A DNA stretch of 64,000 bases, taken from Lotus japonicus. Taxonomy: Eukaryota > Streptophyta > Magnoliopsida > Fabales > Fabaceae. The position numbers and the translations under genes were made by a program. The stretch spans positions 59,387,507-59,451,506 of the forward strand of contig NC_080044.1 of assembly GCF_012489685.1 (NCBI RefSeq). The letters are read 5' to 3'. Positions 3,541 to 58,889 of the stretch are shown here, one piece after another. The notes beneath the pieces are model-generated. The model was not told the origin of the DNA, made no database searches, and saw nothing but the letters and a program-made list of their open reading frames with translations. Position 1 is the first letter of the stretch, and the number at the start of each line of letters is the position of its first letter.

Positions 3541-4250
3541 GTTACTCGTGTGTGAGAACAGTATTTCGAGGGTGACACCGAAATTATTTGTGCGTGAGAA
3601 TCCTAACTAGAGTGTGCCAACAGTCATATTAGTGCGTGCGAGCTCTAACTCGAGTGTGCCAACAATCAGATTAGTGCGGAGGTACTCTAACTCGAGTGTG
3701 CCGACAATCATATAAGTGCGGGCGAACCCTAACTTGAGAGTAGCCACAATCATACAAGGGCATGAGATCCCAAACTCCAAAGGAACTTTAATCAAATGTG
3801 CGTGAGAACCCTAACTCGAGAGTGACCACAATCATATTAGTGCGTGATATCACTTACTCCAAAGGAAGTATAGTCAATCGAGTGTGAGAACTCTAACACA
3901 GGAGGAGCGAGAGGAACTTTAGTCAATCGTGTGTGAGAACCCTAACTCAAGAGTGACCACAATCATATAAGTTCGTGATATCACTTACTCTAACACGAGA
4001 GGAGCGAGAGGAACTTTAGTCAATCGTGCGTGAGAACCCTAACTCGAGTGTGACCACAATCATACTAGGGCATGAGATCCCTTAACTCCAAAATATATTA
4101 ATTACTAGTTGTAAAATATTTCAAATTCATATATCTAAAATTAATATATTGTGAAAATATTTTAAATAACATAAATAATTATAAAGAATGTGCTTATAAC
4201 AAAAAAAAAACGCAAGAAACATGTTAAAAATTAAGAAATTGTTGGAAAAA
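3541..4250. repeat. Tandem repeat array plus AT block, composite repeat copy 2
   Basis: About seven units carrying CAATCATATTAGTGCG (with variants) followed by ACTCGAGTGTG. The first few are spaced about 48 bp apart; later units are longer and mixed with GAGAGGAACTTTAGTCAATCG blocks. From about 4086 the AT-rich block seen at 2735-2925 returns. Reverse-strand open frames here only reflect the repeat periodicity. Confidence 0.7.
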
Positions 4251-4446: not shown

Positions 4447-5779
4447 TGATGACCCTATTTTAGTAGTGTTTTTAGGGTCATTTCTTTGTATGTTTTGAGT
4501 CTTTTTGTTGAGTCTCATGTAGTGTTTCATGCATTCTCATGCATTTTTATTCTTTTCTTTAGTTTTTATTTCGTTTTGGTAATTTAGTAGTTTTATAAGT
4601 AGTTTTCTTGCATTTTAAGTAAAGTTTAGGACTTGCATGGTTTTGTTGTGTTTTATGAGGGACTTCTTGTGCTAATGAGCTCTTGGAGCTTCTAGAATCT
4701 TCCTTGTCTTGTTGGTTAGGTTTGGAGTGCAGAAAATGAAGGAGAAAGAAGGCTAAGAAGCATGGAATTGATGAAGAACTTAAAGAGAATTGAAAAGAGA
4801 AGTTTCAGAAGCCAAAAAGTCTTTTTCAGGCGAGCTTGAGCGCCTAGGCGCTGGGAGTGGGCGCCTAGGCGCCAATAGGGTCAGAGAGCATGTTTTTCAA
4901 CATGCAATTGGCGCTCAGGCGCTCTGAATTGGCGCCTGAGCGCCCAGTTTCGTTTGTTTTGCCTATAAATAAGGCTTAGGCCAATTTCCTTGATAATTTT
5001 TGGACATTTTACTCATTTTTGATCAAGTTTGAGAGCTGAGGAGAACTTTGGGGCCAAGGGAGGCTTCCAACTTGTATTTCTTCTCAGGTTTTCTTTACAT
5101 TTCCTTTATGAATTCACTAGCCATGAGTGGCTAGTTTACCTTTTGCTTTGGGTTAAGAGATTCTATGAAATTCTAGTTTGTTAATTCCTATCTCTATGCA
5201 TGAGTCTTGATTTAATCTTGTAATCCAATTCCTTATTGCATGCTTAGCTTTGGTGCACCTTTGCTATAGGCTAGATTATAATTGAATGGAAATTTGTTAT
5301 GATCTAGGGATATGAATTGGAATAGATCCTTCTATACTTGCTTCTAGGAATAGAGTGAGGGTAGGGTTTTGTTGGCCTGAACATACATGCTCTTTTACCT
5401 CTTATGAATGTTTAAGTACACAAGGAATTGGGCTTATCTTTCAGTTTGAGAGAATTACTTTTGTGAGGAATCAACTAGTAAGTACATAGGCTATAACAAC
5501 AAGAGAGAAATCAAGATATCACATGCATAGGATAGGTGAACTAAAATGGATTAGATGATCAAAAACCCAAGGCAATTTTTCCATCATTTGTTATTTACAT
5601 CATTTTCAACATTGCTCTTTTGCAAATCTTTTGTCACAATCAACCAAAACCAATTTTTGAATTTTACTGCTTTAAGAACTTGCAAACTTTAGACTTAAAT
5701 CAACAATTCTCACTCACAATCCCTGTGGTTCGATATTTTAAAACCCGGAGGTATTCGTACACTTGCGAATTGACCAACA
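4447..5779 (+). repeat. 5' LTR of the Athila-type element
   Basis: 1333 bp, matched base for base in length by 11896-13228. Holds the TATA box at 4964-4971 and, just upstream, clustered GC-rich palindromes. The open frame at 5620-5871 across the LTR end is not a gene. Confidence 0.95.
4839..4971 (+). promoter_or_regulatory. LTR core promoter with GC palindromes
   Basis: TATAAATA at 4964-4971 is preceded by two perfect 14-bp palindromes, AGCGCCTAGGCGCT (4839-4852) and GGCGCCTAGGCGCC (4860-4873). A 13-bp inverted repeat follows, GGCGCTCAGGCGC (4910-4922) with GCGCCTGAGCGCC (4932-4944). These stand out in otherwise AT-rich DNA and are conserved in the 3' LTR. They are probable binding sites for a dimeric factor; which one is unknown. 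Confidence 0.7.
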
Positions 5780-5910: not shown

Positions 5911-8205
5911 ATGCACAGTAGGCTTGGCACGGATCCATTGCTGTTTGATCCGGAGCCTGAACGTACTCTTCGCCGTCGTCGAGCCCAACAAAGGCTTGAA
6001 GCCATGGCTGCTCAAATAACGGAAGAGGAGATGCAAGCCCACATAGAAGAAAGAGTGAATGAGGCTCTTGCTCAAAGACTTAAAGAGCAAGATTTGGAGA
6101 ATGCCAATCGTTCTCTCAGAGACCTCACCTCGGCTGCCATGAGCTACGATTATCCGGGCAGCATAGTTTCCCCCGATGGCACGGGAAATTTTGAGCTGAG
6201 GCCGGCATTCATTAATTTGGTGAGCCAAAATCAGTATGGTGGAGGTGCTCTCGAAGATCCTCATGCACACATGGAGCGGTTTATCCGCAATTGCAACACC
6301 TACAGAGTTCAGAATGTTTCAGCGGACACCATCCGCTTGAGTTTATTCCCTTTTTCATTAAGGGATACTGCTGAAGAGTGGTTGAATTCACAGCTCCAAG
6401 GTAGCATTACATCTTGGGAAGACTTGGCTGAGAAGTTCACCACAAGGTTTGTTTCAAGAGCCCTCTTGAGAAAGCTCAAGAATGACATCATGACTTTTAC
6501 TCAATCCACCGACGAGAATCTCTATGAAGCTTGGGAGAGGTTCAAGAAGCTCTTGAGGAGGTGTCCTCAACATAACCTTACTCAAGCTGAGCAAGTAGCA
6601 AAGTTCTATGATGGTCTCCAATATTCTTCGAGGTTTGGTTTAGATGCGGCTTCAAGTGGAGAGTTCGATGCCTTACTTCCACAAGTGGGGTATGAGCTGA
6701 TTGAAAAGATGGCTATAAGAGCCATGAACTCTAGTAATGATCGCCAAGCCCGAAGAGGAGTCCTTGAGGTTGAAGCTTATGATCAACTTATGGCCTCCAA
6801 CAAGCAACTCTCCAAGCAAATGAATGAGATTCAAAATCAAATGAAGACTACCAAGATTGGTGGTCGAGTTGCCAAGGTGGAGTGTGTGACTTGTGGAGGG
6901 CCACATGACAGCGAAGAATGCACAGAGACTAGACCGGAGGAGGAAGTGAAGGCTATGGGTCAAGCTCGGAATGACCCATTTTCAAATACTTACAATCCAG
7001 GATGGAGGAATCACCCTAATTTTTCTTGGAGGCAAGGTAATAATGGGCAAGGAAATGGCTTTCAAAGACAATTTCCTAGCCAAGGATTTCAAGGCCAAAG
7101 CTCAAGACAACCTCAAGAGCGAGGAGAAGGTGAAGGTAGTGGTTCCAAGAAGAGCTTAGAAGAGTTGGTGGAAACTTTCATCAACCGGACGGAGAACAAT
7201 TACAAGAATCAAGAGGCGGCTATCAAGAATCTTGAGAATCAATTTGGCCAGCTGGCCAAGCAAATAGCCGAGAGACCTCAAGGTAAATTTCCTTCCGACA
7301 CTATCCCCAATCCTAAGCAAGAAAATGCCTCTGTTGTAGCCACTAGAAGTGGGAGAGTGATGAGTGAATTGAAGAAAAAAACAGAGGGAGAAAAGAGAGA
7401 GGAGATAGTGGGAGGAGAGGTAGTTGTGCCTATTAAGGTGAGAGAGGAAGTTGATCTTACTCCTGGAACTAGCAAGGTTCCATTTCCTAAAGCATTGGCT
7501 AAGAAGAGCTTAGATAAAAAGTTTTCAAAATTTGTTGATGTTTTCAAAAAGCTCCACATTAGTATTCCTTTTGCCGATGCTTTGGAACAAATGCCTATAT
7601 ATGCTAAGTTTATGAAGGATATTCTGCATAAGAGAAGAAGATTGAAGGGAGTAGATGAGACGGTGTTGATGACGGAGGAATGTAGTGCCATTTTGCAGCG
7701 GAAGATGCCTAAGAAAAGAAGGGACCCCGGAAGTTTCACTATTCCGGTAGAAATTGAAGGCATGGCGGATGTGGAAGCCTTGTGTGATCTTGGAGCGAGC
7801 ATCAATTTGATGCCGCTCACCATGTTTGAGAGGCTTAACCTAGGAGAGGTTACCCCAACCATGCTCTCCTTGCAAATGGCGGATCGATCCCTCAAGACTC
7901 CATATGGGATTGTGGAGGATGTAATGGTGCGGGTGGACAAGTATGTGTTCCCCGTGGACTTTGTTGTGTTTGATATGGAGGAGGATGAGAAGATTCCTCT
8001 CATTCTTGGACGACCTTTCTTAGCTACTGGTAGAGCTAAGATTGACGTTGACAAGGGTCACCTCATTCTCCGTGTTGGTAAGGAAAAGGTACGCTTTTCT
8101 GTTTTTAATCCTATGATTGAGACTAACCATGACAATGACTTTGTCTGTGATGTGATTAGAAGCAGGTCGAAGGTTTCGGAAGAGATCCCCAAAGTTAATG
8201 CCTAA
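5911..8205 (+). CDS. gag-pro: Retrotransposon Gag-protease polyprotein
   Basis: 764 aa. Gag forms the particle that packages element RNA; the aspartic protease cuts the polyprotein. The gag region lies at about residues 100-235 (YGGGALEDPHAHMERF, LFPFSLRDTAEEW, SWEDLAEKF). A zinc knuckle of the variant C-X2-C-X3-H-X4-C form uses Cys325, Cys328, His332 and Cys337. A Q/G/N-rich linker follows. The retropepsin-like active site is D-L-G-A-S at residue 626, with ILGRPFLATG downstream. The start is the first ATG after the primer site and leader. The frame ends in TAA at 8203-8205 immediately after protease, where RT would follow in a complete element. The frame is intact, consistent with the low LTR divergence. 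Confidence 0.9.
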   Translation: MHSRLGTDPLLFDPEPERTLRRRRAQQRLEAMAAQITEEEMQAHIEERVNEALAQRLKEQDLENANRSLRDLTSAAMSYDYPGSIVSPDGTGNFELRPAFINLVSQNQYGGGALEDPHAHMERFIRNCNTYRVQNVSADTIRLSLFPFSLRDTAEEWLNSQLQGSITSWEDLAEKFTTRFVSRALLRKLKNDIMTFTQSTDENLYEAWERFKKLLRRCPQHNLTQAEQVAKFYDGLQYSSRFGLDAASSGEFDALLPQVGYELIEKMAIRAMNSSNDRQARRGVLEVEAYDQLMASNKQLSKQMNEIQNQMKTTKIGGRVAKVECVTCGGPHDSEECTETRPEEEVKAMGQARNDPFSNTYNPGWRNHPNFSWRQGNNGQGNGFQRQFPSQGFQGQSSRQPQERGEGEGSGSKKSLEELVETFINRTENNYKNQEAAIKNLENQFGQLAKQIAERPQGKFPSDTIPNPKQENASVVATRSGRVMSELKKKTEGEKREEIVGGEVVVPIKVREEVDLTPGTSKVPFPKALAKKSLDKKFSKFVDVFKKLHISIPFADALEQMPIYAKFMKDILHKRRRLKGVDETVLMTEECSAILQRKMPKKRRDPGSFTIPVEIEGMADVEALCDLGASINLMPLTMFERLNLGEVTPTMLSLQMADRSLKTPYGIVEDVMVRVDKYVFPVDFVVFDMEEDEKIPLILGRPFLATGRAKIDVDKGHLILRVGKEKVRFSVFNPMIETNHDNDFVCDVIRSRSKVSEEIPKVNA

Positions 8206-23652: not shown

Positions 23653-24484
23653 GGAGGCCTAGCAGATCGTATATCTAGGTAAAAAAGTAAAGTTATATAT
23701 TCTTACTCCCGATTTAGGGTATACCCAGATGGCCAGATGTATTGATAAGCAGTGATGGTATTATATTTAAAAAAAAAAACCAGTGATGGTATTTGTAAGA
23801 CCTGGATTTTCAGAACAAGCTAGTTTCCGACTCACGCGTAGAATCAGTGTAAGCGTGACAGGAGTTTGACATTTGAGGAAGATTAATGAAGAAGAAAGTT
23901 CAGGAATTGCTTGAGGAATGTTGCGTAGTTGTTTTCGGAGTTAGTGCGAGTCGTCTGCACACTTGCCTTAGGGCGAGCGTGTCCAGAATAGACTATTTCG
24001 CTCTTAAAGCAACGTTTTGAGTGAGATTTCGAACTCTCGGAAAATTTAAAGATTCTCTTTATTTTTCCATCGACCAGCGTTTCATTTCGGAACTCTGGAC
24101 TGTACGCACGATAGGTTTCACTTTTCGGATGTCCGCCGACGCTAATTTCTTTGCTTCGAAACCCTATTTTCGAGCAATGGATGAAGACTTTTTCTATTCG
24201 GGACTTCTAAAGAAGATTCCGTCCGCGTTGCCAGACTTGTTTCGACGTTTCCAATCTTTCTTCAGTTGGAAGTTTTGTCGTTTGAGCATCACAGCAAAAA
24301 GTAGTTTTTCGGGGCAGATTAACCGACACCGCTTTTGAGTTTTTCGATATCGTTTTTCCCAAATCCTAGATATTTGTTTTGAGTTCTGGAATTCCGACGC
24401 CAGAATCTCTCTTAGAATTTCTCGGTGATCGTGCTGCAAAAATCGGAATCGCGAAATTTTCATTTTCCCGCGATTTCACCCGCC

Positions 24485-24492
24485 TATAAATA
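24485..24492 (+). promoter_or_regulatory. TATA box of the chromovirus LTR
   Basis: CCTATAAATAGCGCG, about 690 bp into the LTR. Everything downstream in the LTR, including the hairpin array, should therefore be transcribed. The same box is at 32210-32217 in the 3' LTR. Confidence 0.7.
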
Positions 24493-25940
24493 GCGCGAAA
24501 AAGCAAAATCCTCTCATTTTCTTTCCATTTGTGGCTGATTTCGTGGGGAGCAAGGGGGGAGGGGATTTCCGCGAAAACTTGACCAATCTTCGTGCAGTTC
24601 GTCCCTACTTCTAGGTATCGAGGTAACTATCATGAATCCTGCCTCTGATTTCTGTTTCTGCTGAGTTTCTGAAGTCGTTTCTGTGCTCTAAGTTTTGAGC
24701 TTTTTCTAAAATTGTCCGATTTCTCTGATTTCTCGCTTGGGTTATGTTCCTTATGTTCCCCTGAGTCTAAAACCTCTGTCAGTAAACTCTGATTGCGATT
24801 CAGTTGTCCAGGATCTGAAAAATTGACTCAAAACTCTTTTTGTCTCACATTTCGAAACTTTATTGTCGAAAAGACTTAATCTGACTTCGTGCCTTTAGGA
24901 TTTGTTGTCACGGATATCATGAGGATCGTTGCTGTCAAATTTGTTTTCAGAACTGATAACTTTGAAGTTTTGAGCCTTTATTTTGGACCAAAATGCCCCT
25001 GCGTAGTCGTATTTCGGCCCGATTGTCCGAAAATTGTTCTGACAGTTTCTTTGCCTTAGTTTTACCCTAAAACTACCTTGTAAACTGATTTGATCGAAGA
25101 AAAAGAGCCGAAGCCCTTTTCTCCTTATGGCCGTGGGGTTTTCCTAAGGGGAGGGGAGTTTTTCGTTTTCGAAAACTTGTCCTTTCGTACCCGTTTGTCG
25201 TATTCTGAAGCTTTGATGCTTTGTCTATCGTTTATGTATTGTATTGCGATCGAACTAATCGATTTTGTGTGGATTCTGCTTTGTTTTTCCTCCGAGGTTC
25301 AGTTGAAGGAACTTTGGAAGTTTCAAGGCATTCCTGTGAAGGAGATTTGATTTGCGAAGCTGGATCAGCTCGAGGTTAGGGCAACTTACATATATATTAG
25401 CTATGAATGCATGATAGGCGTCGATCAATTCGACTTATGCTTTACTTTGATGTTGATTATGTTGATGAACTGATGTTGTGATGTTGTGCTTTGTTGGATT
25501 GTGCGTTTTGACGCAATTTCGGAGTGGAGATTCATTGATCTGGTGATCTTTGATATTTCGGGTTGGATGAACAACCCTAGGCAAGTCCAAATGTGGGGTT
25601 TGAGACTTAGCCATATGTTGGAATTCTTAGACTTTCCCCGGGAAATGTATTTTGGGTGGTTGATCTTTGAAAACTTAGAATGATAGAGCTTTGAAAATCT
25701 AAAGACTTGGGAAACTTAGACTTTGAGAAATAAACTCATAACTTGACTAATTCGAATTGAAACAATTTTTATTAACGTTTAAGCATAGGAGAACTGAAGG
25801 GGAAAATATTTACGAAAGACGGGGAAAAGTCGACTTTGTTGTGGGTTTGGAGAGTTATCGGAATTGGGGGAAGCCACTAAGGTGAGCTATGGTGATGATT
25901 GAAAGTCACCGAGTACTCTAGTACTCTTGGGGAGTGTTGT

Positions 25941-26416
25941 GGAGCCGTGTTGTATTGACCGACACCTAGTGCTCTTGTTGTTTGGGCTGTGTTGTATTGA
26001 CCGACACTAGACCCTTGTGTATTCTGTGGGTGGAGTTGTGTTGTATTGACCGACACTTACTCCGAGTTGTGTTGTATTGACCGACACTAACTCATGGGTT
26101 TGTTGAGATTGGGTTGTGAGCTAAACACTTTCGTGGTAAGGACGATTCGTTGTTTGGCTAACCACGTTGCATTCAATCGGGTGAATAACGGGAATGGTTC
26201 ACCTGTGCATATCATGGTGAATAACGGGAATGGTTCACCTTGCATTAATGATGAATAACGGGAATGGTTCATCATTCGGTGAATAACGGGAATGGTTCAC
26301 CAAGGATGAATAACGGGAATGGTTCATCCAGGATGGATTTCATCCAGGATGGATAACGGGAATGGTCCATCCATAGTGAAAATGCTTCACTTGTGGCGAA
26401 CGGGAACGCGTCACAA
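25941..26416 (+). repeat. Array of small hairpins with conserved loops and covarying stems (5' LTR copy)
   Basis: Set A: four units with GTGTTGTATTGACCGACAC (from about 25946, 25988, 26037 and 26069), each with extra flanking pairs such as GGAGT/ACTCC or GAGTT/AACTC. Set B: six units with the loop TAACGGGAATGG between complementary arms. The arms are GGTGAA/TTCACC (26180, 26216, 26278), ATGATGAA/TTCATCAT (26248), GGATGAA/TTCATCC (26304) and GGATGGA/TCCATCC (26347). Two shorter relatives are AGTGAA/TTCACT (26375) and TTGTG/CACAA (26391-26416). A further stem, CGTGGT/ACCACG (26132/26161), lies between the sets. The array lies downstream of the TATA box, so it is probably in RNA. Confidence 0.88.
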
Positions 26417-27349
26417 ATCCGGATACATATTGTGCATTTCACGCATACATTCATGCTGACTGAGATTGTGTGCTGTTTGTTTATTGAAGCAATGTTAGAG
26501 CCATAACATGCTAGGATTGTTTATATGTATATATATCAACATATATCTATACCCCATATCACATGTTGAGTGTATATCTACTTATTGCTGTGAGTTGACC
26601 CTAGCGCCTTGGCTTTGTTTGTATGTTTGTGTTTGGGCGGTCGGCCTGCTGCCAGATGTCGATGGCCGACTGGTGTTCGATGGTCTCTCCCTCGGGGGGG
26701 ATCAGATATGAGCTTGTGGATCGGGATGCCCCCACCGCTTGGGTGATCGATGTTGTGGGTCATCGAGCGACGTACCGGGGAAGGGTCATGGAGGACCGGA
26801 CTGACGAGTGTGAACATCTGACGAAAGAAGTTCTACGACGCATGGAGCTGAGCTTCAACTTGCCGTCTTCAGTTCGCCGAGGACTCGGATGTGTGAGCAG
26901 TTATGGGTTGGTAGAGTTAGGCAGGCGTCATATTTGTGTAGAGCTCTGATTCGTTTTGCTTTTGGGACGGGGTAGGTTCCCGACGCATGGCTTTTGTGTG
27001 GTTCTCTTATTGAGGGATCACAGTGAGTCAGTCGGACTATAGGGGTCTTTGCTTAGGCCATTTTGAGGCCGACTTTCTCCCAGTGGATTGTAATTATAAC
27101 CTTTTCACTCACACTTCTGGATCTGTAACTATTTGCCTACGGGCACACTACTTTGGAGTCACTGCGAGTGCGCGTGACATGGGAGTGCAGCTGAGGCTGT
27201 ACATGTGTAAATATTTGTGTGTTGGTTGGGTTTTGTCTTTATTTTCTATTGCTTGATTTAAAAGGTATCAAACGAAAAAATTACCTGTTTTCAGCGTAAA
27301 GTCTATTTTTGGTTACTAAAGTGACACCTGGAAATCGGGGTGTTACATT

Positions 27350-28139
27350 GTGGTATCAGAGCTTAGTCGAGTCTTTTGGGAGTCTTTGGGGAATAGGTCT
27401 TCTGTGCTAGGTTGTTTGACTCTGCAAAGAGTGAAAATTGATTGTCTGCAGAGCGATTTTCGCTCTAATTGCTTGCGTTACTACTCAATCGGATTGAGTG
27501 GTTTGTCTAGTGCTACCGTATGGTTAGTACTAATCGGACGTTCGATGGGATATAGGATGGTGGATCTTAACCGGATGGCGGAGGCTACACGTGAGCATCA
27601 TCAACGACTGATGGCGACAGCAATGTATCAACAAAGAGGAATGAACCGAACTGGAGCTGGGGGACCAATGAGGTCAGGTTCCCAAGGCTACAACGGAAGG
27701 AAGAGTTACCATAAGTGGGGACCATATCAGCGTTCCGAGGGAAGAAATCTTATCTCAAGAGAGTACAAACCGACGACTGCTGATACTGGGGGGGAAGCCA
27801 GTTGGTGACAAAGGAGTGACATCTACTCGTTGCAGAAAGTTTGGGCATTTTGCTAACAAATGCTCAGTGATTGGACGGAGATGCTTCAAGTGTAACCGAG
27901 AGGGGCATCTAGCTGTGAACTGCAAGATCAAAGAAAGTCTATGCTTCAATTGCAACCAACCGGGACATTTCTCCCAAGATTGCAAGGCACTCAGGGGCGA
28001 ATCATCAGGGAATGTTGGGAAAGGAAAACAACTTACTACAGAGGAAAGGATTCATATCAAGGGAGGAGCAAGAGTTGAGGAGTCGAACGAGGAAGAACGT
28101 GGGAACGATGGTAATATTTTAACTGTTCTCGTATTCTAG
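27350..28139 (+). pseudogene. gag: Chromovirus gag remnant with zinc knuckles
   Basis: Two overlapping frames. The first ends in a gag-like Gly/Arg/Tyr-rich stretch (27541-27808). The second (27816-28139) has zinc knuckles CFKCNREGHLAVNC and CFNCNQPGHFSQDC (both C-X2-C-X4-H-X4-C), plus a damaged first one, CRKFGHFANKC. The capsid part of gag is missing and a frameshift separates the two frames, so no functional Gag is made. Confidence 0.8.
27351..27362 (+). other. Primer binding site, initiator tRNA-Met
   Basis: TGGTATCAGAGC, three bases after the 5' LTR, complementary to the 3' end of plant initiator tRNA-Met. Confidence 0.88.
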
Positions 28140-28468: not shown

Positions 28469-29137
28469 GTGCTTTTAGTCAAGAAGAAGGACGGAAGGTC
28501 GAGATCGTGGGTGGATTATCGACAATTGAACAAGGCAACGATCAAGAACAGATACCCGTTGCCGAGGATAGATGATTTGATGGACCAACTACGAGGGGCT
28601 ACCGTATTTTCCAAGATAGATTTGAGGTCAGGCTATCGTCGGATCAGAGTGAAGATTGAGGATATACCGAAGACTGCTTTCAGGACACGTTAAGGACACT
28701 ACGAGTACCTAGTGATGCCGTTTGGAGTGACGAATGTACCTGCTGTTTTCATGGATTACATGAACCGCATCTTTCAGGAGTTCTTAGATCGGCGTGTGGT
28801 GGTGTTTATTGAGGACATATTGATCTATTCGAAGGACGCGAATAAACATGAAGGACATTTGCGCCAAGTTTTACAATTGTTGAGAGAGAAAAAGCTGTAT
28901 GAGAACCCTTCCAAGTGTGAATTCTGGCTGGAGGAAGTCAATTTCTTAGGCCATGCTATCTCGAAGGAGGGCATAGCTGTGGATCCGGCGAAAGTGGAGA
29001 CTGTTTTGGCTTGGGAGCAACCGAAGATGGTGACAGAGATCAGAAGTTCTGTGGATTTAGCTGGATATTATAGACGCTTCATTGAGGGATTTGCCAAGAT
29101 TGTTGGACCTTTGACTCAATTGACGAGGAAGGATTAA
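28469..29137 (+). pseudogene. pol: Chromovirus reverse transcriptase remnant
   Basis: Begins [20 protein letters not shown] and continues through [43 protein letters not shown] and [14 protein letters not shown], the order of RT motifs. Two faults: an in-frame TAA at 28691-28693 just after AFRTR, and Glu for the first Asp of the catalytic F-x-D-D box (GAG at 28811-28813). The frame ends at TRKD* (29137) before RNase H. Protease, just upstream in a complete element, is not recognisable. Confidence 0.88.
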
Positions 29138-31518
29138 TCTTTTACATGGATTGAGGGTGTGTGGTTCCGTAGCGGAATCGTTAGGAACTTGATATCAGGA
29201 TAATTGTGGTTACTGGATGTTAGGATCTCATTGTCTGTTCCAGTGGGTTTTTCTAAATTTCCACCTTCGATGTATTAGGCCTGATCAACCTAATATTGAG
29301 GGGGTGATATTCGGAATCACAGCTGGTTATGGACTTTGATAGAAGGACGGGTAAGATGAATTTGAATTGATTGAGGATTAGTCGGATTTGGGAGGAAAGT
29401 TCGTGTTAAGCATTTGATTGTACAAGATTAAGATTTGAACCTTTGGAAGTTGATGATTTTCGTATAGACATTGATTGGTTAGTTCGTGTGATTACTCCAA
29501 GTAGAGGTAGACTAAGCCAATAGAATTGATGTTGGAAAATCTTTAAGTATTTTCTCGGAAGTTATGAAGTCATAGGTTATGTGATTTCTGACGTGGGATT
29601 ATTAGAGATTAGATAGGTTGGATTTAATATCCGGTTATAGATGATTGTTTGATGGTAGCGAGATTGAGAAGAATTAACTCTGAACTAGATTGTTATAGTC
29701 GAGTTCGAGGAATAAGTTTTGCTAAGCGTTGGATTAATATGTGGAGACATTATAGTCTTAAGAGATGAATTTTCGCTTGAAAAGTGTTGAATTAATGATT
29801 AAGTTGGAGAAAGAAAGTTTTAGCATAAGTTGAATACTTGAGGTTGGTGATATGGATTCCAAGGAAATATGCTGAGATTACTAAGTGAGATTTACTAAGT
29901 TGGATTGAAATCTTAGGGTTAAGATTGAATCTTGAGAGCCGAGAATCACGTACGAGTAGGAGATCTTATGGTTGTAGGTGTGACAATAGGAGTTGAATCT
30001 TAGAAGATTGAAGACCTGAAGGTGAGTTTCGGGTTAAGACCATTGAGGTGTAGTATAAGAGAGATCTTGAAGTAAGGGAATTCTGGGTTGTGTGGAATGT
30101 TAAGGTTGGTGATCGATTGATGTTGATTATGAGGTTGCGGACATCATGACCATGTGATAAGATTTGAATGATGTTAGCATAATAAGTTATGATTATGGAT
30201 AGCAGGATCAAGTGGTGAGTGTGGAAGCATGACGACACTTATCAGGTCGTTTGGGTAAGTGAAGGAGTTATAGTTTTAAGGAACGGATATTCATTTAAGA
30301 AGTATTGAAGAATTAAATGTTATTAGAGGACCAAACTTGGTGAAGGTGTAGGTTTTAAATCTATGAATGTCTGTCTAAGGTGTAGGACTCGAAGTTTGTC
30401 AGAATTTGATTGAGAGATTAAGAAGTTGATTGACGAGATGGTGATTGAGTCACAGAAAGGAAGGTGTTAGTATTAAGATGAATACCTGAGGTTGTTATAT
30501 TTTGACGAGTTTCGTAGAGTATAAGAGTCAATGGGACTTTTTTATGGATTTTGATAATGCATATTACGAGTAACAAGTGAATTTTACTAAAGTTGAATGA
30601 GAATCCTAGGGCTAAGGTTGACCTAGTGAGCTGAGATTCATGTACACATAAGAGATTTAGTGGTGTTAGCGGTTACGATAAGAGTTAAATCTCAGAATGT
30701 TGAAGGATCGGAAGATGTAATGGCTAGTTAAGTCCCTTGAGGTATAGTTATGATTTAATCTTCTAGAGGATAAGTCTCGATTCGTGCGAAGTGTTAGGGA
30801 TTTCAGTAAGTGTAAATAGGTTTGAGTGAGGGAAGTTCTAAGGAAGAAGACGATAATAATGGATTGTTAGATATTAAGAAGAGGATTATCTTATAAGTTG
30901 TTGATAACTTGATGTTGAAGGGGATAAGATTAGTGAAGGACAAGAAATAAGGACATAAGTCGATTTTTAATTCGAATGGTGACTAAGTAGGAGATTGATT
31001 TCATTGTGCGAGTGATGATAGTTACGAAGTTGGATGTGACGTTAATGGACTATTAGATTCCAACACAATGTTTCGTCTAAGAGTTATCGAACGAACAAGT
31101 GATGGACTGTAGATGAAGATCACGAGGACAAGTTGAGTATCTACTTTATGATGACAGAGAGGCACTGAGTTTAAGAAGAATTCCGGACGACCGAAAGTAA
31201 AGAAGTAAGTGGCTAAGGTTGTGCGACTGCACGGAATGCCAACCGGTATCATTTCAAGCAGAGGTCCGACGCAAGTAATCGAGTCAGACGACATGAGGTT
31301 GAATGATGTTTTGTCTTTTGAGACGCCGATAGTTAGCAGTGGGGATAGAAGAGTGAAACAGTTAAGGGGAAGGCAGATTGCTTAAGTAAAGATTTTGAGG
31401 AACAATGACACAGGCACTACTACATGGGAATTGGAAGATAAGATCAAGGAACTGTATTCCGAACTTTTTGCAGAACTCTGAGTTTCGAGGACGAAACTTT
31501 CTTTTTGGAGGGGAGTAT
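29138..31518 (+). pseudogene. Degenerate pol 3' part: integrase scrap, chromodomain tail, polypurine tract
   Basis: About 2.4 kb with almost no open frame on the + strand. Near 31210-31290 a stretch reads AKVVRLHGMPTGIISSRGP, a decayed form of the integrase core around its second acidic residue. At 31392-31481 TTWELEDKIKELYSELF followed by TGA is the end of a chromodomain. GGAGGGGAGTAT directly before the 3' LTR is the polypurine tract. Confidence 0.7.
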
Positions 31519-34500
31519 TGTAAGACCTGGATTTTCAGAACAAGCTAGTTTCCGACTCACGCGTAGAATCAGTGTAAGCGTGACAGGAGTTTGACATTTG
31601 AGGAAGATTAATGAAGAAGAAAGTTCAGGAATTGCTTGAGGAATGTTGCGTAGTTGTTTTCGGAGTTAGTGCGAGTCGTCTGCACACTTGCCTTAGGGCG
31701 AGCGTGTCCAGAATAGACTATTTCGCTCTTAAAGCAACGTTTTGAGTGAGATTTCGAACTCTCGGAAAATTTAAAGATTCTCTTTATTTTTCCATCGACC
31801 AGCGTTTCATTTCGGAACTCTGGACTGTACGCACGATAGGTTTCACTTTTCGGATGTCCGCCGACGCTAATTTCTTTGCTTCGAAACCCTATTTTCGAGC
31901 AATGGATGAAGACTTTTTCTATTCGGGACTTCTAAAGAAGATTCCGTCCGCGTTGCCAGACTTGTTTCGACGTTTCCAATCTTTCTTCAGTTGGAAGTTT
32001 TGTCGTTTGAGCATCACAGCAAAAAGTAGTTTTTCGGGGCAGATTAACCGACACCGCTTTTGAGTTTTTCGATATCGTTTTTCCCAAATCCTAGATATTT
32101 GTTTTGAGTTCTGGAATTCCGACGCCAGAATCTCTCTTAGAATTTCTCGGTGATCGTGCTGCAAAAATCGGAATCGCGAAATTTTCATTTTCCCGCGATT
32201 TCACCCGCCTATAAATAGCGCGAAAAAGCAAAATCCTCTCATTTTCTTTCCATTTGTGGCTGATTTCGTGGGGAGCAAGGGGGGAGGGGATTTCCGCGAA
32301 AACTTGACCAATCTTCGTGCAGTTCGTCCCTACTTCTAGGTATCGAGGTAACTATCATGAATCCTGCCTCTGATTTCTGTTTCTGCTGAGTTTCTGAAGT
32401 CGTTTCTGTGCTCTAAGTTTTGAGCTTTTTCTAAAATTGTCCGATTTCTCTGATTTCTCGCTTGGGTTATGTTCCTTATGTTCCCCTGAGTCTAAAACCT
32501 CTGTCAGTAAACTCTGATTGCGATTCAGTTGTCCAGGATCTGAAAAATTGACTCAAAACTCTTTTTGTCTCACATTTCGAAACTTTATTGTCGAAAAGAC
32601 TTAATCTGACTTCGTGCCTTTAGGATTTGTTGTCACGGATATCATGAGGATCGTTGCTGTCAAATTTGTTTTCAGAACTGATAACTTTGAAGTTTTGAGC
32701 CTTTATTTTGGACCAAAATGCCCCTGCGTAGTCGTATTTCGGCCCGATTGTCCGAAAATTGTTCTGACAGTTTCTTTGCCTTAGTTTTACCCTAAAACTA
32801 CCTTGTAAACTGATTTGATCGAAGAAAAAGAGCCGAAGCCCTTTTCTCCTTATGGCCGTGGGGTTTTCCTAAGGGGAGGGGAGTTTTTCGTTTTCGAAAA
32901 CTTGTCCTTTCGTACCCGTTTGTCGTATTCTGAAGCTTTGATGCTTTGTCTATCGTTTATGTATTGTATTGCGATCGAACTAATCGATTTTGTGTGGATT
33001 CTGCTTTGTTTTTCCTCCGAGGTTCAGTTGAAGGAACTTTGGAAGTTTCAAGGCATTCCTGTGAAGGAGATTTGATTTGCGAAGCTGGATCAGCTCGAGG
33101 TTAGGGCAACTTACATATATATTAGCTATGAATGCATGATAGGCGTCGATCAATTCGACTTATGCTTTACTTTGATGTTGATTATGTTGATGAACTGATG
33201 TTGTGATGTTGTGCTTTGTTGGATTGTGCGTTTTGACGCAATTTCGGAGTGGAGATTCATTGATCTGGTGATCTTTGATATTTCGGGTTGGATGAACAAC
33301 CCTAGGCAAGTCCAAATGTGGGGTTTGAGACTTAGCCATATGTTGGAATTCTTAGACTTTCCCCGGGAAATGTATTTTGGGTGGTTGATCTTTGAAAACT
33401 TAGAATGATAGAGCTTTGAAAATCTAAAGACTTGGGAAACTTAGACTTTGAGAAATAAACTCATAACTTGACTAATTCGAATTGAAACAATTTTTATTAA
33501 CGTTTAAGCATAGGAGAACTGAAGGGGAAAATATTTACGAAAGACGGGGAAAAGTCGACTTTGTTGTGGGTTTGGAGAGTTATCGGAATTGGGGGAAGCC
33601 ACTAAGGTGAGCTATGGTGATGATTGAAAGTCACCGAGTACTCTAGTACTCTTGGGGAGTGTTGTGGAGCCGTGTTGTATTGACCGACACCTAGTGCTCT
33701 TGTTGTTTGGGCTGTGTTGTATTGACCGACACTAGACCCTTGTGTATTCTGTGGGTGGAGTTGTGTTGTATTGACCGACACTTACTCCGAGTTGTGTTGT
33801 ATTGACCGACACTAACTCATGGGTTTGTTGAGATTGGGTTGTGAGCTAAACACTTTCGTGGTAAGGACGATTCGTTGTTTGGCTAACCACGTTGCATTCA
33901 ATCGGGTGAATAACGGGAATGGTTCACCTGTGCATATCATGGTGAATAACGGGAATGGTTCACCTTGCATTAATGATGAATAACGGGAATGGTTCATCAT
34001 TCGGTGAATAACGGGAATGGTTCACCAAGGATGAATAACGGGAATGGTTCATCCAGGATGGATTTCATCCAGGATGGATAACGGGAATGGTCCATCCATA
34101 GTGAAAATGCTTCACTTGTGGCGAACGGGAACGCGTCACAAATCCGGATACATATTGTGCATTTCACGCATACATTCATGCTGACTGAGATTGTGTGCTG
34201 TTTGTTTATTGAAGCAATGTTAGAGCCATAACATGCTAGGATTGTTTATATGTATATATATCAACATATATCTATACCCCATATCACATGTTGAGTGTAT
34301 ATCTACTTATTGCTGTGAGTTGACCCTAGCGCCTTGGCTTTGTTTGTATGTTTGTGTTTGGGCGGTCGGCCTGCTGCCAGATGTCGATGGCCGACTGGTG
34401 TTCGATGGTCTCTCCCTCGGGGGGGATCAGATATGAGCTTGTGGATCGGGATGCCCCCACCGCTTGGGTGATCGATGTTGTGGGTCATCGAGCGACGTAC

Positions 34501-35072
34501 CGGGGAAGGGTCATGGAGGACCGGACTGACGAGTGTGAACATCTGACGAAAGAAGTTCTACGACGCATGGAGCTGAGCTTCAACTTGCCGTCTTCAGTTC
34601 GCCGAGGACTCGGATGTGTGAGCAGTTATGGGTTGGTAGAGTTAGGCAGGCGTCATATTTGTGTAGAGCTCTGATTCGTTTTGCTTTTGGGACGGGGTAG
34701 GTTCCCGACGCATGGCTTTTGTGTGGTTCTCTTATTGAGGGATCACAGTGAGTCAGTCGGACTATAGGGGTCTTTGCTTAGGCCATTTTGAGGCCGACTT
34801 TCTCCCAGTGGATTGTAATTATAACCTTTTCACTCACACTTCTGGATCTGTAACTATTTGCCTACGGGCACACTACTTTGGAGTCACTGCGAGTGCGCGT
34901 GACATGGGAGTGCAGCTGAGGCTGTACATGTGTAAATATTTGTGTGTTGGTTGGGTTTTGTCTTTATTTTCTATTGCTTGATTTAAAAGGTATCAAACGA
35001 AAAAATTACCTGTTTTCAGCGTAAAGTCTATTTTTGGTTACTAAAGTGACACCTGGAAATCGGGGTGTTACA
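31519..35072 (+). repeat. 3' LTR of the chromovirus
   Basis: 3554 bp, offset 7725 from the 5' LTR. I found no difference from the 5' copy. Followed by the target duplication GTATT. Confidence 0.95.
33666..34141 (+). repeat. Hairpin array, 3' LTR copy
   Basis: Same units as at 25941-26416, shifted by 7725 bases, with no change seen. Confidence 0.88.
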
Positions 35073-39523: not shown

Positions 39524-41317
39524 TGACATGATCTTTTGTAGTGTAGCTTTTGTTGAGAGGTCTTATTCCAGCTACAAGCAACTGAAATCTGGAAAACATA
39601 TCCTCAATGGACTCGTTAGGTTCCATGATGAAGGATTCATATTTCTGGATCAAAGACAGCGCCTTTGATTCTTTCACTTTCTTGTTTCCTTCATGAGACA
39701 TCTTCAAGGATTCAAAGATGCCCTTGGCAAACTCACGATCTGTAATCTTCTGGTACTCTTCATAGGAAATAGCACTTAGAAGAATAGCTCTAGCTTTGTG
39801 GTGCTGTGAGTAAAGCTTCTTTTGCTCAGCAGTCATCTCTGATCTGGAGATCTTCTTGACATCTGCATCAACTAGACGCTCATAGCCATCCACAATGATA
39901 TCCCAGAGATCTGCATCGAAGCCTAGAAAGAAACTTTCAATTCTATCTTTCCAATATTCGAACCTTTGACCGTCGAACATGGGAGGCTTTGCATTGTATC
40001 CATCTTTCTGTGTTTCACTGGTGGTAGCCATTTGTTTTTCACACCGGCCCGGATCACTGAACACTGTTAGGTGTGGTAATCAGAACTTGCGCTCTGATAC
40101 CAATTGAAGGTATGAAAAACGGTAGAAAGGGGGGGTTTGAATAGCGTTTTCAGAATAAAACTTCCACCTTAAAGATTTTAACAAATCTTTTGAGACACAA
40201 GTAAAGTGCTTAAGATAAGAGATAAGAAAAGCACACAAGGATTTTATCCTGGTTCACTTGATGAATCACTCAAGCTAGTCCAGTCCACCCGTGAAGGTGA
40301 TTTCTTCCTTCTTAGAATGAAGGCAATCCACTAATCAGATAATTGTTACAACTGCACTTGAAACCTACAAGTGACTAACAATACACTGACTTAGCTCACA
40401 CTAAGATTCACTCTCTTAGTCTTTTCTAGGATCCGATCAACCTTGATCTCCTAAAGGTAAACTAAACAACTGTTTAAGAAATCTTGTTTACAAAGAGATT
40501 GCTTCTAAAAAGCTTGTAGTAAACACAATGAATTCAATGAATAAAGAATGCTTAGAAGATTTGAATATAGCTTGCGCGTATGAGTTTCTTCCAACCGCAT
40601 CCTTCAGTCTTCAGCCTCTATTTATACTCCAAGGATTAGGTTTGAACGTTGCATGGGGATGCTACAGTTTGAGGGCAGATCTAGAATTTTCAGCTTCTCC
40701 TGTGGCTGAGAAAGTTAGGTTAGGTCGTCAGGATAGTACAATTGCTTTTGTACTTTGGATAGTGACTTGACCTTTAACCTCGTTTGACTTCTTATCAGAG
40801 GAGTGCTTCGTGTTGGAACTTGTGAAGCTTGTTGATCAGAGTCAGAGGGAAGCATGGATCCTCTGACTATTGTACCTTCTGATTTTGAACTCAGAGGAGA
40901 AGTACTTGGTCTTCACAACCATTTTGCTTCTAGACTTCAGAGTCTTCACTCTTCAGCTTCTGGATCTTCAGAGTCTTCTACACCATCAGAACTTCTGAGC
41001 CTTCAGAGTGTCTGGGTTGTCAGAACGTCTGGATCTTCAGAACTTCGAGTGAGCTGAGTCCTTATCAGAGCTTGAATAACTTCAGATCTTCTGAAGCTTT
41101 TCTACTGTTCAGATTGAATATAGAGACTGCGAAAGCGTTGCTAGGGTGACTCTATACGCACAGTGCTTCTGATTGGTGTGAGATCATGTTGAGGTCAGAG
41201 CCTGTTACAAGCACACTTAGAAAACACGTTAGAGTACCATAATTGTTCATACTAAAATGTTAACTTGTAATCATCAAAACATAGAGTTGTACTACTAGAT
41301 CAAAACTTGATCTTACA
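39524..41317 (-). mobile_element. Truncated Sirevirus: 5' LTR, primer site and start of gag
   Basis: Reverse-strand fragment matching 57085-58889 of the complete Sirevirus. The LTR is 40105-41317 (1213 bp), the primer site TGGTATCAGAGC (reverse strand) is at 40091-40102, and gag codons 1 to about 170 run from 40031 to 39524 (PPMFDGQRFEYWKDRIESFF, SYTTKDHVI). Beyond that it joins the duplicated segment. It differs from the complete element by several percent in the LTR, so it is an older or separate lineage. Confidence 0.88.
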
Positions 41318-46787: not shown

Positions 46788-48007
46788 TGAAGGTATGAAA
46801 AACGGTAGAAAGGGGGGGTTTGAATAACGTTTTCAGAACAAAACTTCCACCTTAAAGATTTTGACAAATCTTTCGAGAACTTAAGTGCTAAAGATAAGAG
46901 ATAGAAAAGCACACAAGGATTTTATCCTGGTTCACTTGATAAATCACTCAAGCTACTCCAGTCCACCCGTTAAGGTGATTTCTTCCTTCTTAGAATGAAG
47001 GCAATCCACTAATCAGGTAAGAGTTACAACTGCACTTGAAACCTACAAGTGACTAACAATTACACTGACTTAGCTCACACTAAGATTCACTCTCTTAGTC
47101 TTCTCTAGGATCCGATCAACCTTGATCTCCTAAAGGAACTAAACAAACTGTTTATCAAAGAATTGTTTACAAGAGATTTGCTTCTAAAAAGCTAATAGTA
47201 AACACAATGAATTTCAGATGAAAGAAGGCTTAGAATATTTTGAATATGTCTTGCGCGTATATGTGTTTCTTTTCTTAGTTTCTTAGCCGCTTCTTTCAAT
47301 CTTCAGCCTCTATATATACTCCAAGGATTAGGGTTGAGCGTTGCATGGGAAATGCTACCGTTGGAGGGCAGTTCTGGAAAATCCAGCTTCTGCTGTGGCT
47401 GAGAACGTTAGGTAGGTCGTCAGGAAGGTACACTTGCTTTTGTACTTGGATAGCGACTTGACCTTTTAACCTAGGAGACTTCTGATCAGGGGAATACTTC
47501 ATATTGGAACTTGTGAAGCCGGTTGATCAGAGTCAGAGGGAAGGCACAGATCCTCTGACCATTGTATCTTCTGATTCTGAACTCAGAGGGAAGAACATGG
47601 CCTTCAGAGTTTCTTGCTTCTGGACTTCAGAGTTTCCACTATTCAGCTTCTGGATCTTCAGAGTCTTCTACACCATCAGAACATCTGAACCTTCAGTGTT
47701 TCTTGGTTATCAGAACTTCTGGATCTTCAGAGCTTCTAGCGACTGAGTCCACATCAGAGTTTGTATAGCTTCAGAACTTCTGAAGCTTTTCCACTGTTCA
47801 TACTGAACATGGTGAATGCGAAAGCGTTGCTTGGGTTACCCTTTATACACAGTGCTTCTGATTTGTGTGAGATTAAGTTGAGGTCAGAGCCTGTAAATAG
47901 CACACTCAGAAAAACACGTTAGAGTACCACAATTGTTCATATCAAAAGGATAACTTGTAATCATCAAAACATAGAGTTGTACTACTAGATCAAAACTTGA
48001 TCTTACA
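46788..48007 (-). repeat. 3' LTR of the Sirevirus
   Basis: 1220 bp. Rich in the words TCAGAG and CTTCAGA, repeated many times between about 47520 and 47790. Two differences from the right-hand LTR. Confidence 0.95.
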
Positions 48008-57669: not shown

Positions 57670-58889
57670 TGAAGGTATGAAAAACGGTAGAAAGGGGGGG
57701 TTTGAATAACGTTTTCAGAACAAAACTTCCACCTTAAAGATTTTGACAAATCTTTCGAGAACTTAAGTGCTAAAGATAAGAGATAGAAAAGCACACAAGG
57801 ATTTTATCCTGGTTCACTTGATAAATCACTCAAGCTACTCCAGTCCACCCGTTAAGGTGATTTCTTCCTTCTTAGAATGAAGGCAATCCACTAATCAGGT
57901 AAGAGTTACAACTGCACTTGAAACCTACAAGTGACTAACAATTACACTGACTTAGCTCACACTAAGATTCACTCTCTTAGTCTTCTCTAGGATCCGATCA
58001 ACCTTGATCTCCTAAAGGAACTAAACAAACTGTTTATCAAAGAATTGTTTACAAGAGATTTGCTTCTAAAAAGCTAATAGTAAACACAATGAATTTCAGA
58101 TGAAAGAAGGCTTAGAATATTTTGAATATGTCTTGCGCGTATATGTGTTTCTTTTCTTAGTTTCTTAGCCGCTTCTTTCAATCTTCAGCCTCTATATATA
58201 CTCCAAGGATTAGGGTTGAGCGTTGCATGGGAAATGCTACCGTTGGAGGGCAGTTCTGGAAAATCCAGCTTCTGCTGTGGCTGAGAACGTTAGGTAGGTC
58301 GTCAGGAAGGTACACTTGCTTTTGTACTTGGATAGCGACTTGACCTTTTAACCTAGGAGACTTCTGATCAGGGGAATACTTCATATTGGAACTTGTGAAG
58401 CCGGTTGATCAGAGTCAGAGGGAAGGCACAGATCCTCTTACCATTGTATCTTCTGATTCTGAACTCAGAGGGAAGAACATGGCCTTCAGAGTTTCTTGCT
58501 TCTGGACTTCAGAGTTTCCACTATTCAGCTTCTGGATCTTCAGAGTCTTCTACACCATCAGAACATCTGAACCTTCAGTGTTTCTTGGTTATCATAACTT
58601 CTGGATCTTCAGAGCTTCTAGCGACTGAGTCCACATCAGAGTTTGTATAGCTTCAGAACTTCTGAAGCTTTTCCACTGTTCATACTGAACATGGTGAATG
58701 CGAAAGCGTTGCTTGGGTTACCCTTTATACACAGTGCTTCTGATTTGTGTGAGATTAAGTTGAGGTCAGAGCCTGTAAATAGCACACTCAGAAAAACACG
58801 TTAGAGTACCACAATTGTTCATATCAAAAGGATAACTTGTAATCATCAAAACATAGAGTTGTACTACTAGATCAAAACTTGATCTTACA
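57670..58889 (-). repeat. 5' LTR of the Sirevirus
   Basis: 1220 bp. Differs from the left LTR at two positions that I found, 58439 (T for G) and about 58595 (T for G). Followed on the right by the target duplication CATTT. Confidence 0.95.

Follow-up and report, generated by a model that had tools for sequence, protein, structure and literature searches.

Tandem hairpins within the long terminal repeats (LTRs) of a Lotus japonicus Ty3/gypsy retrotransposon appear to form a structured RNA element under selection: their arms co-vary beyond a tree-based null. The array may serve as an RNA platform that unspliced genomic RNA alone carries and that Gag probably recognises, in the manner of a packaging signal; this is the explanation we rank first, tentatively and with somewhat less than even confidence.

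The stretch of DNA analysed (the window) comprises 64,000 nucleotides of contig NC_080044.1. The element found in it has the following parts:

23794 to 27347, + strand: 5′ LTR, 3554 bp, with TG...CA ends and the target-site duplication GTATT on both sides
31519 to 35072, + strand: 3′ LTR, in which every LTR feature is repeated at +7725
24484 to 24492, + strand: TATA box CTATAAATA, at LTR position 691-692 in four copies (that of the window, L032, L042 and L035)
27351 to 27362, + strand: primer binding site (PBS) TGGTATCAGAGC, directly after the 5′ LTR
27816 to 28139, + strand: gag remnant with zinc knuckles (PF00098, E 1.2e-15)
28694 to 29137, + strand: reverse-transcriptase (RT) remnant (PF00078, E 1.6e-17), its frame broken upstream of 28694

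Paired LTRs with TG..CA ends, a target-site duplication, a PBS (which we take to be that for the initiator tRNA-Met), a gag zinc knuckle and an RT of Ty3/gypsy type were thus all present. Several RT relatives carry the name transposon 17.6-like Pol, transposon 17.6 being a Ty3/gypsy element. A reading of the window made earlier from the letters alone (the sequence-only reading) had called the element a chromovirus. The RT relatives make a chromovirus, of the Tekay/Del type, plausible, but inspection by eye of the frames of at least 45 aa in the window copy revealed neither integrase nor chromodomain, and the Pfam scan covered three internal frames. The two LTRs differ at 0 of 3554 bp. An intact gag-pol was absent from the window copy, whose frames are short and broken; within 29140-31400 no complete sense frame reaches 60 aa. 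This copy is a recent, apparently non-autonomous insertion. The family is abundant, with 2413 candidate places in the genome, and the 40 places scored (including the two LTRs of the window) were all identical to the 491-bp query, which points to recent amplification of the family. In the RT remnant, FIED stands in place of the FIDD that forms the majority line in an alignment of 28 sequences.

The hairpin array was found at 25941-26416, where the sequence-only reading had placed it, 1.4 kb 3′ of the TATA box, and again 7725 bp downstream; as claimed, each of the two identical LTRs holds a copy. At least ten units sharing two loops had been reported, and four type-1 plus six or seven type-2 hairpins were counted per LTR. 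All four arm pairs that had been quoted (GGTGAA/TTCACC, GGATGAA/TTCATCC, GGATGGA/TCCATCC and AATGATGAA/TTCATCATT) were correct. In order along the 5′ LTR, the hairpins are:

25891 to 25926, + strand: two short hairpins 5′ of the main array, GGTGA..TCACC (25891-25910) and GAGTAC-TCTA-GTACTC (25911-25926)
25942 to 25974, + strand: type-1 hairpin, outer arms GAGC/GCTC, loop region TGTATTGACCG
25984 to 26014, + strand: type-1 hairpin, outer arms GGG/CCC
26032 to 26063, + strand: type-1 hairpin, outer arms GGAGT/ACTCC
26064 to 26093, + strand: type-1 hairpin, outer arms GAGTT/AACTC
26107 to 26163, + strand: long imperfect hairpin separating the two arrays, read by eye (L032 has a second similar copy, also by eye)
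26180 to 26203, + strand: type-2 hairpin, GGTGAA/TTCACC, loop TAACGGGAATGG
26216 to 26239, + strand: type-2 hairpin, GGTGAA/TTCACC
26247 to 26276, + strand: type-2 hairpin, AATGATGAA/TTCATCATT
26278 to 26301, + strand: type-2 hairpin, GGTGAA/TTCACC
26304 to 26329, + strand: type-2 hairpin, GGATGAA/TTCATCC
26331 to 26345, + strand: short hairpin without the common loop, GGATG/CATCC
26347 to 26372, + strand: type-2 hairpin, GGATGGA/TCCATCC
26375 to 26391, + strand: hairpin AGTGAA/TTCACT, whose arms flank the AACGGGAA core in L030 and L032
26391 to 26416, + strand: type-2-like hairpin, TTGTGGCG/CGTCACAA, core AACGGGAA

The type-1 core TGTATTGACCG occurs four times per LTR and eight times in the window (mean 0.00 in 100 shuffles), and the type-2 core AACGGGAA seven times per LTR and 14 times in the window (mean 1.54, maximum 5 in 100 shuffles). 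The complete loop TAACGGGAATGG is enclosed by perfect arms of 6-9 bp in six units, the seventh (26391-26416) having the shorter common core. The outer arms of the type-1 units differ yet pair, via bulges as read by eye. When folded as RNA, pairing ran into the 'loop', leaving unpaired approximately TATTGAC and AACGGGAATG. Hairpins resembling GAGTA..TACTC were also seen in L045 and L072. Within the window alone the covariation of type 2 is suggestive, its observed value being reached by two of 720 arm permutations; for type 1 the same permutation was uninformative (22 of 24 reached the observed value). The folding energy of the array is moderate and not exceptional: z was −2.25 to −2.86 at the best array windows (−1.94 to −2.34 on the antisense strand) and −2.4 to −3.2 for windows outside the array in the same LTR. 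Rfam covariance models gave no match up to E 1 in 23700-27500.

Relatives of the LTR in the Lotus genome are 85-95% identical to that of the window (L056, 93%) and retain the type-1 and type-2 arrays, with varying unit number and arms. L032 and L042 bear a third array (type 3), not present in the window, of about ten units with the loop CGTGAGA and arms such as TTCAC-T-GAAG/CTTC-GTGAA; among these, GAAG/CTTC is exchanged for GAGG/CCTC, and TTCAC/GTGAA for TTCGC/GCGGA. Units of this type were also found in L063, L039 and another stretch of L036/L037. Collecting copies and testing them for covariation, as the sequence-only reading had proposed, showed the arms to co-vary beyond the null in all three types, which were those covered by the formal test. 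Its input was the distinct units with the exact loop core, identical ones being collapsed and, for type 3, two off-register rows being left out. The null was obtained from a tree of the units, the inferred substitutions being redistributed over the variable columns in 2000 simulations; it is approximate, because tandem units duplicate and can convert one another. For type 2 (18 units), 105 of 144 cells were Watson-Crick pairs compared with 67.8 under the null, and double changes numbered 169 against 44.6 expected; none of the 2000 simulations reached either value. For type 3 (20 units) the corresponding figures were 148 of 180 cells versus 118.0 (reached by 7 of 2000) and 168 double changes versus 37.5 (0 of 2000), and for type 1 (10 units) 93 of 110 cells versus 79.7 (0 of 2000) and 38 double changes versus 12.0 (23 of 2000). 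The excess of additional Watson-Crick pair types was less extreme (reached by 60, 80 and 24 of 2000 for types 2, 3 and 1, respectively). In a second run of 1000 simulations, the observed cells and double changes were reached by 0 and 0 (type 2), 1 and 2 (type 3) and 1 and 6 (type 1). When the partner was slid by −3 to +3 positions the excess was lost, type 3 at +1 being borderline (68 and 75 of 1000 for cells and double changes).

A neutral process acting on DNA could also produce matching arms, if palindromic repeats spread by slippage and strand transfer and hairpin-templated correction restored pairing without selection. Arrays such as these are quick to expand, contract and alter their sequence, and the genome has palindromic tandem repeats at other places as well. 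However, the palindromic array that another element has in L044 showed no double change (in seven distinct units only), and the loops are better conserved than the arms: among distinct units the arms differ by 0.38-0.48 per site and the loops by 0.05-0.07, a contrast that is inflated because the units were located by their loops, and that comes from an incomplete survey in which three chance matches were counted as type 1 and at least one type-2 unit of L032 was missed. The mate LTRs of a single element, which can differ only by changes arising after insertion, also speak against such correction. In L032 and L036 they showed five stem changes (three arm deletions and two substitutions), none of which was compensated, together with two substitutions in loops and a deletion next to a stem. 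On balance we consider a neutral origin improbable. Arms changing without compensation had been named beforehand as the observation that would count against selection for folding; between lineages the stem changes are mostly compensated, while those between mate LTRs are not. The proposal of selection for folding, with the loop as the recognised part, agrees with covariation above the null and with loops less variable than arms.

The pattern of conservation bears as well on the possibility that transcription factors bind the hairpins as palindromic DNA sites. In the U3 region of retroviruses, tandem repeats can have a role in transcription, and repeats of this kind are present in tobacco Tnt1, according to passages of one report (PMC3601003). 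A palindromic DNA site would keep its arms, though, whereas here the arms vary and the loops are fixed, and the array lies far 3′ of the TATA box; we regard this explanation as extremely unlikely. The strand that folds was sought in the ratio of GU to AC combinations in the stems, which was 22:4 for type 2, 21:6 for type 3 and 10:1 for type 1. As a mark of the sense strand this excess was not significant, being reached by 484, 795 and 1844 of 2000 null simulations, respectively, and strand assignment by this route was dropped, the null itself showing an excess. Conservation of the loops rather than the arms is a better argument that a strand folds.

Tandem repeats at the corresponding place in related LTRs are common. 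A search for the LTR end plus PBS gave 924 sites without the family-typical base, and 20 LTR tails were picked among the first 100 listed, for variety around the PBS and with their arrays unseen beforehand. Tandem repeats were present 0.9-2.1 kb 5′ of the PBS in 19 of these 20 tails, the exception being L059; the tails are not independent, 16 of the 20 resembling one another. A 26-nt unit with GCTG..CAGC was found in 13 of the 20, type 3 in L063 and a form resembling it in L052. L057 bears 28 tandem CTTCGG hairpins (the CUUCGG tetraloop in RNA) from −1565 to −1001 relative to the PBS end. The repeats of L058 and L070 are not clear hairpins, and this, with the likeness of 16 tails, weakened the proposition that every family has a hairpin array. 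Upstream of position 4474 on the minus strand of L046, a 61-nt double hairpin shows pair exchanges in both stems; its pairing table, read without a null, fits six of eight distinct units, two being misfits in that register. L072 (565-781) holds three 82-nt units with four hairpins each, as judged by eye. A general argument from folding stability of the units was dropped: the median was −0.37 in 37 LTR arrays and −0.04 in 53 other tandem arrays (P = 0.098; several of the 53 are LTR-derived, so that the control set is not clean), and z fell below −2 in 5 of 37 and 7 of 53, respectively.

Beyond the Lotus genome, viral contigs yielded 11 single matches to the type-2 core, which is about the chance level for the collection size assumed, no match to the type-1 core and no confirmed RT; genome contigs searched for paired type-1 cores gave none. 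A further search of genome contigs returned nine loci in bacterial records encoding RT relatives, several of them apparently plant contaminants. Two loci from bacterial records, L018 and L015, bear other hairpin sets, and in L018 GGAGTC/GACTCC stands beside GAAGTC/GACTTC with a nearly identical loop. The records L012-L018 (Mycobacterium, Streptomyces, Geminicoccus, Solirubrobacter and others) contain plant-like retrotransposon sequence, apparently as contamination.

The array of the window lies between two splice-like junctions, 25374/25375 and 26655/26656, the second of which opens a reading frame (hyphens below mark the junctions):

25375 to 26655, + strand: predicted leader intron holding the array, donor GAG-GTTAGGG and acceptor CTGCCAG-ATG, from homology to the exon-intron structure of P0124
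26656 to 26949, + strand, and again 34381-34674: LTR frame from the predicted exon 2 (MSMADW..., 97 aa; about 159 aa in relatives)

P0124 is one of five annotated Lotus proteins (with P0122, P0123, P0126 and P0128) that, together with three unannotated database proteins, are homologous to the LTR frame. Its first 20 residues are not encoded beside the remainder: exon 1 is at C5:23366270-23366329, followed by GTGAGGG, and exon 2 runs from C5:23367904, preceded by CAG. The hairpin array of its LTR starts at C5:23366962, between the two exons, and the intron of this gene model would span that array. At their N-termini, P0123 and P0126 resemble the corresponding exon in L059 and L045 (reached by 0 of 1000 shuffles in each case), the match of the upstream exon of P0126 being in another reading phase; the join to exon 1 was missing in two of the five annotated proteins, P0122 (25-28 of 1000 shuffles) and P0128 (which starts MSMADW). 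The acceptor CAG was present in all 26 Lotus LTRs read, of which 21 have the ATG and five keep the CAG without it. A donor (C/G)AG-GT(G/T)AGGGC was recovered from nine copies by a pattern search in which most of the 2127-base tails probably stop short. In the family of the window the array region would be transcribed and then spliced out. The sequence-only reading had expected the array in the transcript: its position 3′ of the TATA box agrees, but since it lies between splice-like sites matching the gene-model intron of a related LTR, the spliced RNA would be without it.

The frame itself is apparently under purifying selection, five comparisons giving dN/dS values of 0.24 (window-L045), 0.24 (window-L055), 0.28, 0.12 and 0.34; the pairs that include the window have dS above 1. 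It is 159 aa long in L038, L055, L062, L066, L067, L070 and L071 and of similar length in L045 (7714-8193); in the remaining tails it was broken or not found, and that of the window departs from its relatives after about 79 residues. Genome matches without an internal stop numbered 136 among the best 150 of 7373 candidates, a selection that favours intact copies.

The main rival to a packaging role, which we rank second and think unlikely, is that the array controls RNA processing, either as an intronic structure that slows splicing or as an export element bound by the LTR protein made from spliced mRNA. Rev/RRE of lentiviruses and Rem/RmRE of MMTV are pairs of this kind, an intronic RNA element and a small protein from spliced RNA, and the LTR of MMTV also encodes a protein. 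The Lotus element would be similar in having an intronic array and an LTR protein from spliced RNA; unlike in those systems, an export role is here purely hypothetical. For it speak the position of the array inside the predicted intron of a related LTR's gene model and the conserved protein that the spliced RNA would encode, its first exon being rich in Lys and Arg in P0123, P0124 and L059. Against it, L032 and L042 have lost the ATG and keep both arrays and acceptor, so that the array is independent of the protein in cis (an action in trans being possible). The protein, moreover, had no match in Pfam, and the AlphaFold model of P0124 was of low confidence (mean pLDDT 56), with no PDB match at E 0.001.

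Control of translation or polyadenylation is a further possibility, in which a very long structured leader would act by shunting, as an IRES-like element or by occluding the 5′ poly(A) site. The distance from the TATA box to the PBS, about 2.86 kb, would suit it. An mRNA without the array, if spliced, would not, and conserved loops suggest a binding partner rather than bulk structure; we hold this role to be very unlikely. Still less probable is that the hairpins feed small-RNA silencing by the host or arise as its by-product. At 6-9 bp, the stems are short as substrates for Dicer, and the element would not be expected to maintain such pairing. On the other side, predicted miRNA-like structures in maize genes and transposable elements correlate with small RNAs, in the part of that study consulted (PMC10760457).

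In retroviruses, packaging signals and export elements are two kinds of element that act in unspliced RNA alone, and a loop-conserved, arm-covarying array in an intron would fit an RNA element meant for unspliced genomic RNA only. Packaging or dimerisation was ranked first because gag-pol is broken, the amplification recent and a tag for helper Gag would be needed, as is argued for BARE2: with gag and pol broken and LTRs identical, the window copy presumably owes its movement to proteins supplied in trans, for which it would have to carry a tag of this sort. Under this packaging explanation, the array would be a cis-acting RNA element of repeated stem-loops in which the stems must pair but are free in sequence and the loops are recognised. 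Being housed in the leader intron of the LTR transcript, it would be present in full-length unspliced RNA, in the 5′ leader and perhaps at the 3′ end too, and missing from spliced RNA. A protein, with the Gag zinc knuckles encoded by the element itself or by a helper as the first candidate, may bind the exposed loops cooperatively and so mark the genomic RNA for packaging, dimerisation or both, as Psi does in retroviruses.

Retroviral Psi consists of hairpins with exposed purines 3′ of the major splice donor. The Lotus array resembles it in its leader stem-loops with conserved loops and in its probable confinement to unspliced RNA by the predicted intron; it differs in consisting of many near-copies in tandem inside the LTR of a plant Ty3/gypsy element, and Gag binding is putative. 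In MMTV a purine loop is the Gag site, according to the passages available (PMC8096270). The 5′ end of the genomic RNA of Ty3, which belongs to the same superfamily as the Lotus element, is structured and has a dimerisation palindrome, its cis packaging sequences not being precisely defined; a tandem hairpin array does not appear in the passages on Ty3 in that source (PMC11381356). BARE2 is unable to produce Gag, yet a relative packages it, and its signals for dimerisation and packaging are said to be retained; BARE1 and BARE2 have distinct RNA pools and splicing; unlike the Lotus element, they belong to the Copia superfamily, with the splice junction at the gag end and not around a hairpin array, as far as the excerpts of that paper go (PMC3735527). 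The structural modules of enod40 are likewise stem-loops in a legume RNA related to tandem repeats of mobile elements, but enod40 is a cellular non-coding RNA, and the sections consulted do not describe those repeats as LTR arrays (PMC10578108). In the literature searched (titles and abstract openings, with subscription papers mostly outside) no description of tandem covarying hairpins in an LTR was recognised.

A wider reading, which we consider slightly more unlikely than RNA-processing control, is that of a retrovirus-like RNA switch in the LTRs of plant Ty3/gypsy elements: a fast-evolving intronic array of hairpins with conserved loops would tag unspliced RNA for packaging or export, and the LTR-encoded protein of the spliced RNA may bind that array. 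Were this true, loop and partner would co-evolve, giving a family-specific recognition code, as is suggested by loops that differ in sequence from one family to another. Little is known of the cis signals that set the genomic RNA of plant LTR retrotransposons apart from their mRNA and that allow intact copies to mobilise defective ones. With a hairpin array that is repeated, covaries and is apparently limited to an intron, in an LTR family of high copy number, this question would be open to direct testing.

Other arrays were noticed in passing. Another LTR family of the window has a tandem array of palindromic 17-nt units (TTCTGGATCTTCAGAA) at 40926-41043, 47614-47742 and 58496-58624, and a tandem array with 42-nt and longer periods lies at 3585-4064, near another LTR element of the window. 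Outside the LTRs studied, L048 holds strongly palindromic tandem arrays (TTCACATCGGTT...AACCGATGTGAA) at 1529-1689 and 6377-6603, with z values of −5.8 to −8.7 on either strand.
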